Source: Zoogloeaceae bacterium
Lineage (GTDB): Bacteria; Pseudomonadota; Gammaproteobacteria; Burkholderiales; Rhodocyclaceae
Assembly (NCBI GenBank): GCA_031282665.1
Contig: JAITDH010000125.1
Coordinates: 1-7,013 of the forward strand
Length of the DNA stretch: 7,013 bases
Reading direction: 5' to 3'
This document shows, piece after piece, positions 205 through 4,848 of the stretch (position 1 is its first letter; each line of letters begins with the position of its first letter). The notes below the pieces were generated by a model that was not told where the DNA came from, made no database searches, and saw only the letters and a list, made by a program, of their open reading frames with translations. The position numbers and the translations under genes were made by a program.

Positions 205-323
205 GGGACAGGATAGCAGAGGTCGGGGCAGGAGTCAGAGCACGCGTTGCGCGCTTTGTAGTCAGTAGCCAGTGGCCGGTATGCGCATGGTTTGTTTCTG
301 ATCCCCGATCCCTGTTTCCTGAC
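205..323. repeat. Composite heptad-repeat element, copy A
   Basis: This fills most of the bcp/chemoreceptor divergent intergenic region. The left arm (207-240) is made of purine-rich 7-base units of form NNCAGRR (GACAGGA, AGCAGAG, GGCAGGA, GTCAGAG) with one-base slips. Next is CGCGTTGCGCGCTTTGT (243-259), then three exact heptads AGTCAGT, AGCCAGT, GGCCGGT (260-280), then the palindrome ATGCGCAT (281-288). The right arm holds four contiguous inverted heptads TTCTGAT, CCCCGAT, CCCTGTT, TCCTGAC (296-323). Bases 243-289 align without gaps to 4713-4759 (39 of 47 identical by my hand count). No ORF or transposase is associated. A possible minus-strand extended -10 for bcp (TGCTATCCT) lies in the left arm at 211-219, without a good -35. 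The unit structure resembles cyanobacterial STRR heptanucleotide repeats; mobility or regulatory function is unproven. Confidence 0.8.
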
Positions 324-384
324 TCGCATAAAATGTAACAATTCTTTCTGTCCGCCAGCTCGTATTTTACAATTATTCGGTATA

Positions 385-412
385 TTTACAGAATATGTTT
401 CTGGAATATATA
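385..412 (+). promoter_or_regulatory. Candidate sigma-70-like promoter of the chemoreceptor
   Basis: Within an AT-rich stretch (about 329-415) that contrasts with the GC-rich surroundings, TTTACA (385-390) and TATATA (407-412) are separated by 16 bases. Transcription from here would give a 5' leader of only about 14 bases, barely containing the ribosome-binding site. A second TTTACA at 366-371 has a poorer -10 (CAGAAT, 389-394). I saw no convincing flagellar sigma-28 promoter (TAAA, then GCCGATAA), although many chemoreceptors use one. This is a motif match only. Confidence 0.35.
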
Positions 413-421
413 TTGTCCAGC

Positions 422-427
422 AGGAGG
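422..427 (+). promoter_or_regulatory. Ribosome-binding site fixing the chemoreceptor start
   Basis: A perfect AGGAGG lies 5 bases before the ATG at 433. It decides the start. The same frame is open back to 292, but the upstream 47 codons run through repeat element A and the AT-rich promoter region and have no comparable site. The residues from 433 onward look like a normal receptor N-terminus (short basic stretch, then a membrane helix). Confidence 0.85.
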
Positions 428-432
428 TTTAC

Positions 433-2981: not shown

Positions 2982-2983
2982 GG

Positions 2984-4015
2984 CTATTTCCCTTCCCCCC
3001 TGATCCAGCGCGCCGCGTCCAGCGCGAAGTAGGTGAGGATGCCGTCCGCGCCAGCGCGTTTGAAGCCGAGCAGGCTTTCCAGGACGACGGCGCGTTCGTC
3101 CAGCCAGCCGTTTTGGCTCGCGGCCTTCAGCATGGCGTATTCGCCGCTGACCTGGTAGGCGTAGGTCGGCACGCCGAATTCATCCTTCACCCGCCGCACG
3201 ATGTCCAGGTAGGGCTGGCCGGGCTTGACCATCACCATGTCCGCCCCTTCGGCGATGTCCAGGGCGACTTCGCGCAAGGCTTCGTCGCCGTTGCCGGGGT
3301 CCATCTGGTAGGTGTATTTGTTGCCCTTGCCGAGATTGCCCGCCGAGCCGACGGCATCCCGGAAGGGGCCGTAGAAGGCGGAGGCGTATTTGGCGGAGTA
3401 GGCGAGGATGCGGGTGTGGATGCGCCCCGCGCCGTCCAGTTCGGCGCGGATGCGCCCGATGCGGCCGTCCATCATGTCGGAGGGCGCGACCACGTCGGCG
3501 CCGGCTTCGGCATGGCAGCGCGCCTGCCGGGCCAGGGCTTCCAGGGTTTCGTCGTTCTGCACGTAGGCGGTCGGGTCGTCCGGGTCGATCAGGCCGTCCT
3601 GTCCGTGGCTGGTGTAGGGATCGAGCGCCACGTCGGTGATGACGCCGAGTTCGGGGAAGCGGCTTTTCAGGGCGCGCACGGCTCGCGGCACGAGACCTTC
3701 GGGATTCCAGGCTTCCCGGGCGTCGGGGGATTTCAGGGCGAGGTCGATGACCGGGAAGAGCGCCAGGGCGGGAATGCCGAGGTTTTGCGCGCGCTCGGCG
3801 GTGGCCAGGAGCAGGTCGAGGCTTTCGCGTTCCACGCCGGGCATGGAGGGCACCGCCTCGCGGCGTTTTTCGCCGTCGAGGAGGAAGACCGGATAGATGA
3901 AGTCGTCCGGCGTCAATACGGATTCGCGCATCAGGCGGCGGGAAAAATCGTCGCGGCGCATCCGGCGCATGCGGGTCTGGGGGAAGGAGGCGGCGTAGGT
4001 GGCATAGCGGGACAT
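2984..4015 (-). CDS. hemB: Delta-aminolevulinic acid dehydratase (porphobilinogen synthase)
   Basis: The enzyme condenses two 5-aminolevulinate molecules into porphobilinogen, the first common tetrapyrrole step, in the cytoplasm, usually as an octamer. The protein is 343 residues, normal for the family. The two Schiff-base lysines are visible: Lys209 in [13 protein letters not shown] and Lys264 in [13 protein letters not shown]. The metal-site segment reads [14 protein letters not shown] (128-141). Ala and Asp occupy the places where zinc enzymes have cysteines, as in the Pseudomonas aeruginosa enzyme, so this is the zinc-independent, magnesium-using class. The N-terminal arm [21 protein letters not shown] is typical of proteobacterial HemB. 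The ATG at 4015-4013 has AGGAG 7 bases upstream. It lies 30 bases after engB in the same direction and runs nearly into the next small gene, so all three are probably one operon. Confidence 0.98.
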
Positions 4016-4045
4016 GGAAAATCTCCTGGGCAGGGAATCGGTGAA

Positions 4046-4654
4046 TCAGTTCTTCGCGGACGACAGATCCAGCCATCCGGCCAGCACGCTCTCGCATTCT
4101 TCCAGGCCGGTTTTTTTCAGGCTGGAGAAAAGCTGCGCCGAGCATTGTTCGCCCAATGGGGCGAGGGCGGCGCGGACCTTTGCCAGGGTGGCGTTCTGCG
4201 CCTGGCGGGAGAGCTTGTCGGCCTTGGAGAGCAGGATGTGAATCGGGCGTCCGGTGGGAGCGAACCAGTTCAGCATCTGGCAATCGAGTTCGGTGAGGGG
4301 GCGGCGGCAATCCATGATGATGACCAGTCCCGCGAGCGGGGAACGGTCTTCCAGGTAGGGAGCGAGCAGCCTTCCCCATTGTTTCCGGATGGCGTCCGGC
4401 GTCTTGGCGAAGCCGTAGCCGGGAAGATCGACCAGATAGCGGCCCGGCGCGACGGTGAAGTAATTGAGATGCTGGGTGCGCCCCGGCGTCTTGCTGACGA
4501 AGGCCAGCCGGGCGCGTCCGGCCAGGGTGTTGATCGCCGAGGATTTCCCGGCGTTGGAACGTCCGGCGAAGGCGACTTCCGCCACCGCGTCCGTGGGCAG
4601 GTCGGAGAGATGGGCAACCGTGGTGAGAAAGGTGGTGTTTTGCAGCAGGGGCAT
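4046..4654 (-). CDS. engB: Ribosome-biogenesis GTP-binding protein EngB (YsxC/YihA)
   Basis: EngB is an essential small GTPase needed for late assembly of the large ribosomal subunit and, in some species, normal division. At 202 residues it has normal length. All G motifs are present: G1 GRSNAGKSS (31-39), G2 around TPGRT (56-60), G3 DLPGYGFA (76-83), G4 SKADK (143-147) and G5 SSLKKTG (177-183). The start [20 protein letters not shown] matches the usual EngB N-terminus, so ATG 4654-4652 is favoured. However, no clear Shine-Dalgarno sequence precedes it; the minus-strand bases just upstream are C- and T-rich. The heptad-repeat element B begins about 5 bases upstream and occupies the position of the ribosome-binding site and promoter. 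It is the first gene of the putative engB-hemB-small-gene operon and is divergent from cytochrome c4. Confidence 0.97.
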
Positions 4655-4659
4655 GATGG

Positions 4660-4848
4660 TCAGGGGGGCAGGGATCAGGAGACAGGGATCAGGAGACAGA
4701 GGATAGAACGCGCGCGTTGCGCGCTTTGTTCTCGGTGGTTGGTGGTCGGTATGCGCATGTTTGCTCCTTCTGATTACTGATGACGGATTCCAAAGGTTGC
4801 GCGCGACCGCTCTGTCCTCCGTCCTCTGTCTTCTGTCCTCTGCCCCTC
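4660..4848. repeat. Composite heptad-repeat element, copy B
   Basis: This fills most of the engB/cytochrome c4 divergent region. The left arm (4667-4708) reads in contiguous 7-base units GGCAGGG, ATCAGGA, GACAGGG, ATCAGGA, GACAGAG, GATAGAA, giving two perfect 14-base copies at 4669-4696. The core is CGCGTTGCGCGCTTTGT (4713-4729), three heptads TCTCGGT, GGTTGGT, GGTCGGT (4730-4750) and the palindrome ATGCGCAT (4751-4758). The right side has TTCTGAT, TACTGAT, GACGGAT (4768-4788), a second GC-rich near-palindrome (4795-4808), then five inverted heptads CTCTGTC, CTCCGTC, CTCTGTC, TTCTGTC, CTCTGCC (4810-4844). The outer arms are reverse-complement versions of one unit family (GACAGAG), so the whole element could fold into a long imperfect hairpin. 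It shares order and core spacing with copy A at 205-323. Confidence 0.82.

Follow-up and report, generated by a model that had tools for sequence, protein, structure and literature searches.

The DNA analysed here (the window) is a stretch of 7,013 nucleotides, contig JAITDH010000125.1 of a Zoogloeaceae bacterium, that carries two copies of a composite element built from seven-base repeats (heptads), both in divergent intergenic regions. Copy 1 adjoins the start codon (181) of a partial peroxiredoxin gene of the AhpC-TSA type (2–181, minus strand, Pfam PF00578), with a gene for a methyl-accepting chemotaxis protein downstream (433–2460, plus strand, PF00015 and PF17201). Copy 2 adjoins the start codon (4654) of engB, coding for a YihA/YsxC GTPase (4046–4654, minus strand, identified by PF01926 and the names of the nearest proteins), and is followed by a gene for a two-domain cytochrome c (4926–5588, plus strand, PF00034 and PF13442), which we take to be of a c4-like subtype. 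Bases 243–289 and 4713–4759 align without gaps and are identical at 39 of 47 positions, distributed just as the initial annotation had described (17 identical, then 9 of 17, then 13 identical); the repeat listing of the window gives this core pair as one direct repeat of 53 nt. An exact repeat of 17 occurred in 5 of 200 second-order Markov sequences, so that the 17-mer by itself is only slightly out of the ordinary, and the case for two copies of one element rests on their common order of parts and on the further copies found elsewhere.

Copy 1 begins with a degenerate, purine-rich left heptad arm (205–241, plus strand), recognised by its period-7 signal and its position in the family, and continues into hairpin A and the core sequence GCACGCGTTGCGCGCTTTGT (240–259, plus), placed by the repeat alignment and the invariant columns of the core alignment. 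Three heptads of a fixed type follow, AGTCAGT AGCCAGT GGCCGGT (260–280, plus, from the sequence and the core alignment), and then the centre ATGCGCATG (281–289, plus, core alignment), with similar centres in L187, L190 and L214 (L numbers designate loci and G numbers genomes). The copy ends with inverted heptads from TTCTGAT (296–325, minus, from the sequence and the family plan), the right-hand hairpin being missing. Copy 2 is full length (about 4664–4848) and consists of the left heptad arm (4664–4706, plus; Tandem Repeats Finder (TRF) arrays 4669–4704 and 4676–4699, inverted partner 4822–4842), hairpin A with the core sequence AACGCGCGCGTTGCGCGCTTTGT (4707–4729, plus; repeat and core alignment), three fixed-type heptads (4730–4750, plus; TRF and core alignment), the centre ATGCGCATG (4751–4759, plus; core alignment), inverted fixed heptads with a GATTCCAAAG module present also in L128 (4768–4794, minus; locus comparison and family plan), the right-hand hairpin GGTTGCGCGCGACC (4795–4808, no strand assigned; sequence and position in family) and a right heptad arm of the TCTGTCC type (4809–4848, minus; TRF array 4810–4842 and inverted repeat match). 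The diverged 17 bases of the core are mostly heptads, the three of copy 1 standing against TCTCGGT GGTTGGT GGTCGGT in copy 2. TTCTGAT begins at 296 in one copy and at 4768 in the other, as the same annotation had noted. The self-match at an offset of 7 was 0.45 for copy 1 (201–330) and 0.47 for copy 2 (4661–4860), and among offsets 2 to 21 the only other one to exceed 0.4 was offset 14 in copy 2.

Relatives were reached through a match to the core pattern within the order, itself judged to be chance, and then through cytochrome searches that led to the closest genus, the genomes being searched stepwise (399 of the order, 249 of one family and 20 of the closest genus). The window EngB is 69–86% identical to its relatives in 16 of these 20 genomes, so that the window, to judge from this protein, is most likely from another member of that genus; the source organism given for near proteins is Zoogloeaceae bacterium or, lower in the ranking, Azovibrio. 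The 14-base core, with at most one mismatch, was found at 51 places in 17 of the 20 congeners, and a reversed control was about equally frequent in most genomes. Thirty of those places were examined as loci and four of them (L120, L122, L128 and L136) had the window plan, with heptads on both sides. These four and the two window copies gave a core model that was searched in the 20 congeners (matches counted at E ≤ 1, with at most 150 candidates scored per genome). The model matched 92 times in G647 (best E 7.6e-21), 116 times in G648 (best E 3.0e-20), 38 in G641, 26 in G640, 24 in G646 and 9 in G642. These are not element counts, since each half of a complete element can produce a match of its own. 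In the remaining 14 of the 20 congeners the best core-model E was above 0.001 or there was no match. At E ≤ 1e-5 the model matched 5 of 297 genomes of the family, a search in which at most 14 candidates were scored per genome, so that misses are possible; four of the five belong to the window's closest genus. The fifth, G604, opened a second genus, in which 3 of 28 genomes were positive (97 matches in G704, 30 in G604 and 2 in G708), and the G704 matches form 95 clusters in the loci fetched from that genome. The family has a narrow, patchy distribution and has expanded in bursts in individual species of two genera. The search with the core that the initial annotation had called for, run here in the relatives, thus brought further copies that keep the architecture; their parts follow one another in other genomes as they do in the window, which rules out chance low complexity and upholds the annotation's view of a defined dispersed family. 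Three genome stretches matching core and centre were taken as chance, all three being without heptad arms, as were 57 viral stretches with a 15-mer match (no heptad arms in the 25 contexts of highest period-7 score).

From sixty first-genus loci and the copies of G704 and G604 we could draw the plan of the element. The full element is palindromic: an arm of RGACNGA heptads (about four per side on average), hairpin A, fixed heptads of the TTTGTGG TCTGTAGTC type, a centre of about 20–30 bases, and then the inverted counterparts, in which the fixed heptads end in ACAAAGG and are followed by the second hairpin and the inverted arm. The whole is non-coding and measures about 150–200 bp; in 23 of 65 copies the stretch examined contained no recognisable right arm. 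The 298.6 kb of G604 contain 59 arrays of three or more heptads, and the 24 neighbouring arrays within 700 bp of each other were mostly directed inward (18 “+-”, 5 “++”, 1 “--” and no outward “-+”). Two core families are framed by such arrays in G604. Core A was found in 15 array pairs (9 of the 15 cores 101–103 bp, range 89–164), core B in 2, both of 72 bp, and one further pair contains A and B. The core B element of G604 (L398:6818-6971, L411:2826-3024, L404:13477-13590 and L410:11302-11443) has the palindromes GGCGGCTTCGCCGCC and CCGATCGG. The palindrome GGGGCGGCAACCTGCCGCCC or a near variant lies inside the centres in L122, L171, L172, L178, L179 and L203 (G647 and G648); its presence within several centres indicates that elements nest. 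The alignment of 68 G704 copies, together with the table of heptad words, shows units of seven bases in tandem, some positions fixed and others free, i.e., heptameric repeats. The element is also short and non-coding, has inverted ends and occurs in many dispersed copies, as a miniature inverted-repeat transposable element (MITE) does. The heptads had been called fast-drifting. This describes positions 1, 5 and one position 4, which are largely free, but the majority of heptad columns vary as little as those of the core. The free columns are not associated with how closely the cores are related, a result that the drift of a unit inherited as a whole would not readily give.

One line of evidence that the arms and the core have separate histories comes from G704. 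In 73 non-redundant full copies the similarity of heptad words did not follow that of the cores (Mantel r 0.015, p 0.32): word identity was 0.27, 0.27, 0.28, 0.27, 0.27 and 0.25 for core identities of <0.75, 0.75–0.80, 0.80–0.85, 0.85–0.90, 0.90–0.95 and ≥0.95 (161, 569, 1031, 498, 176 and 18 pairs), so that even the 18 pairs with cores at least 95% identical had no trace of common heptads. Word finding is imperfect and its pattern favours fixed positions, and the test was redone on aligned columns of the 68 copies. The free arm columns were again unlinked to the core (r -0.009, p 0.60). The same held for the 28 arm columns taken together (r 0.025, p 0.26) and for the left arm (r -0.034), whereas variable core columns, taken in equal number, had a median r of 0.33 (0.20–0.48) and the two halves of the core an r of 0.19. 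These tests exclude the few copies that fall in two overlapping loci (L290, L355). The end heptads, therefore, do not remain associated with the middle part between them.

A second line of evidence is found in the sites that G604 and G704 have in common, which are many; most of the matching flanks are 92–96% identical (third codon positions 91%). Unchanged sites exist, e.g., L271/L302, with a core identity of 0.98. When the core of a G604 element was compared with 111 G704 copies (duplicates not removed), the copy at the same site ranked 1, 1, 2, 4, 9, 13, 22, 25, 27, 39, 50, 57, 63 and 82 in 14 comparisons, i.e., 1st to 4th in four, 9th in one and 13th to 82nd in nine. In the ten comparisons at rank 9 or lower, identity was 0.77–0.88 with the same-site copy versus 0.87–0.98 with other G704 copies. 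The comparisons come from 12 to 13 locus pairs chosen among 40 listed; 13 of the 14 comparisons have both flanks matching and that of L348/L328 one; those of L350 and L290 are half elements with fewer columns, in which the best of 110 other copies is inflated, and a second L339/L360 pair (too few columns) and L276 and L337 against L327 (one flank) were left out. The changes at common sites are of several kinds. The element is inverted in L338/L383, with both flanks matching, in L348/L328, with one, and in L173/L188 (G647 versus G648), where the left flank alone is in common. In L398/L304 and L411/L310 core B is found in G604 where G704 has core A, one of the G604 sites having also part of A, and in L345/L329 a second, complete element has been added in tandem at the site. 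In the first genus, L191/L208 has a solo heptad arm left in G641, L208/L216 share an element that G648 is without, L181/L199 has an internal deletion in G647, and L221/L174 could not be aligned. The elements L167:2505-2660 (G647) and L206:5338-5488 (G648) occupy a common site; the latter lies just upstream of an M1 peptidase gene whose relative in the window has no element there. At sites with a replaced core, inner words matched in 7 of 29 (shuffled 0.16, p 0.15), and at two common sites whose core is conserved they did so in 5 of 7 (shuffled 0.25, p 0.04), with outer words at 2 of 7 (p 0.42); these two sites hint that near the core words are kept by plain descent. Outer words that stay with the site are visible in single cases, the right arms of L278/L390 and L338/L383.

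The engB-cytochrome spacer allowed a comparison of a filled site with its counterparts, between species and not between strains. It was readable in 16 of the 20 congeners (the other 4 were without engB at the cut-off) and had no element, by eye, in any of the 16; two profiles run over 17 engB-cytochrome loci found none either, their sole hit having an E of 2.1. A TAGAATARCA motif before the cytochrome gene is kept in 16 of 16 congeners, and the longer spacers of G642, G645 and G650 are heptad-free by eye. Since every readable congener is element-free there, copy 2 is a lineage-specific gain. For copy 1 the chemotaxis proteins of the genus are merely 43–52% identical, and six upstream stretches had no clear counterpart of the site. 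Genes were called with a home-made program, and of 68 element clusters (E ≤ 1e-5) 35 fell in tandem, 12 in divergent and 6 in convergent spacers, with 15 not assignable (contig ends); only 1 of the 68 lay inside a called gene. The spacers of the same loci, including those with elements, are 83 tandem, 21 divergent and 16 convergent, close to the proportions of the elements. Some G704 arms (L306, L315, L317, L329 and L331) start a few bases from an apparent TGA stop codon.

As for the enzyme involved, the Y1 transposase (PF01797) matched in 7 of 20 first-genus and 18 of 28 second-genus genomes. It had matches, partly fragments, in the element-bearing G640, G641 and G648 and none in 6 of the 9 element-bearing genomes (G647, G646, G642, G604, G704 and G708), drafts that may be incomplete; as a partner of the element it is thus unsupported. 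Carriage by phages or plasmids was likewise set aside: one G704 element had no phage match and one partial (24%) match to a plasmid record, its hairpin-arm pattern gave no viral match and the window element only short matches to plasmids.

We also compared the folding of the DNA with 60 dinucleotide shuffles in 35 copies whose right arm starts 60–135 bases past the core. The z-score was below -3 in 20 of the 35 (median -3.5; copy 2, -6.3). Copy 1 gave +0.8, a value that says little, coming from a stretch cut at a spurious right-arm match and including flanking DNA. The inner parts without most of the arms gave -0.09 (copy 2), -0.55 and -1.96, indicating that the arms provide most of the stability. 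In 83 of 210 copies we identified a hairpin of the second type, with stems that vary between genomes and still pair (GGCC/GGCC, GGCGC/GCGCC, GGCCGC/GCGGCC). Its loop was a GNA triloop in 69 of the 83, GAA in 62 of these, although 54 of the 83 have a single stem (GGCC GAA GGCC) and belong to related copies, so that they are non-independent, and about 7 are other palindromes inserted in the centre. GNA loops form unusually stable small DNA hairpins, and their presence hints at a role as single-stranded DNA.

We read the window copies, with a little more than even confidence, as members of a dispersed, non-coding, MITE-like intergenic family whose arms let cores be exchanged. Dispersal and mobility are well supported; the palindromic plan, the many copies, the patchy expansion and the position of copy 2 at a site free of elements in every readable congener are all directly observed. 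The element would have spread as a non-autonomous one served by an enzyme in trans, not necessarily a transposase of the Y1 type. Once settled, its heptad arms may serve as interchangeable anchors, through which recombination or gene conversion among copies would replace cores of about 100 bp, turn them around or add new ones. Exchange of this kind would explain both why heptads are unlinked to the core and why a site outlives its occupant, and arms that act as exchange anchors are the simplest reading of unlinked arms and differing occupants. Several results weigh against it. Outer words did not stay significantly with the site (7 of 29, shuffled 0.18, p 0.21), the right arm, taken alone, was close to showing a weak association with the core (r 0.063, p 0.058), and 15 of the 35 folded copies had no z-score below -3. 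The left and right arms of one copy, compared in the 65 of 105 copies that were usable, share words no more than shuffled ones do (0.233 versus 0.221, p 0.31) and so are not kept matched, as they would have to be in a pairing stem. We found no mobilising enzyme, and no systematic search for an autonomous transposon sharing the ends was made. The draft genomes are fragmented, which limits the shared-site comparisons, and some differences may be assembly faults. Fast slippage, mutation and ectopic conversion of the heptads could look similar, erasing the linkage.

These same processes belong to a rival that we keep as a less likely but serious possibility, an ordinary MITE whose transposase moves the whole unit, arms included as terminal inverted repeats, and whose free positions are scrambled later. 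The inverted arms, the patchy bursts, the element-free site in congeners and the slight excess of identical adjacent words (95 of 388 versus 0.20 expected) all agree with it. The lack of common heptads in the pairs with the most similar cores does not, nor does the failure to detect a target-site duplication in 74 G704 copies (mean longest direct repeat 4.11 versus 4.29 shuffled, p 0.99, with fuzzy, script-set ends and duplicates not removed). It seems unlikely that only the core moves, inserting into or swapping between heptad tracts that pre-exist as genomic landing sites. Such movement would account for the independence of cores and arms, for the two core families in heptad frames exchanged at two common sites and for the similar core lengths within each family; but congeners have no heptad tract at the engB site, so there the arms arrived together with the core, and the outer-word result does not help it. 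Selection for a structured RNA or cis-regulatory element at gene ends (an attenuator, or a processing or stability hairpin) would suit the nearly exclusive intergenic location and the stems that change and still pair. We consider it very improbable, as every gene arrangement occurs in near-background proportions, the occupants of common sites differ and can be inverted, and the window had no Rfam match above the gathering threshold. Exchange through the arms may also go further than we propose: heptad arrays could be generic exchange ends, through which unrelated palindromic cores would be exchanged, inverted and stacked at fixed positions between genes, with the free heptad positions rewritten in each copy (by degenerate templated synthesis or shuffling), like degenerate telomere repeats. 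We hold this extension to be rather doubtful; within the literature searches made, such a recombination system has not yet been described.

Among known repeats, REP (repetitive extragenic palindromic) and REPIN elements are paired inverted extragenic palindromes with many copies and with RAYT (Y1) transposases; the element here is longer and, as said, most of the genomes that bear it gave no Y1 match. In Nostoc-type cyanobacteria heptameric tandem repeats are associated with small mobile repeats. The nearest published system that we found is the (GGGANTN)n heptamer of Xanthomonas, a seven-base unit with positions 5 and 7 variable, usually in four units and mostly intergenic, with 70 and 75 closely spaced opposite-strand pairs in two species (PMC4692102). 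The likeness lies in the seven-base units with free positions, the inverted pairs and the intergenic location, but no defined core, hairpins or core exchange are described in the accessible part of that report (PMC4692102). The TAACTGA direct repeats of Beggiatoaceae and cyanobacteria are also dispersed intergenic heptamers, patchy across species, for which, in the portion available, no palindromic element is described (PMC4679880). Type II MITEs without a matching insertion sequence, e.g., those of Anabaena sp. 90, are similar in their size of about 100–300 bp, inverted ends, many copies, mostly intergenic location and in that no matching transposase was found (PMC3542288). The family here differs in its arms, degenerate arrays of heptads that are not linked to the core, and in having different cores at common sites. 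Literature searches, with most subscription journals outside their scope, yielded no description of this family, which we regard as a MITE-like element with degenerate heptad arms. Here the heptads frame defined, apparently mobile cores, and the separate histories of arms and cores make a testable claim, that heptad arrays are exchange ends for small mobile DNA. If true, some of the heptad arrays of Xanthomonas or cyanobacteria may merit the same reading.

Elsewhere in the window, an open reading frame of 134 aa without a Pfam match lies on the minus strand at 2577–2981, between the chemotaxis receptor gene and a hemB-type gene (PF00490).
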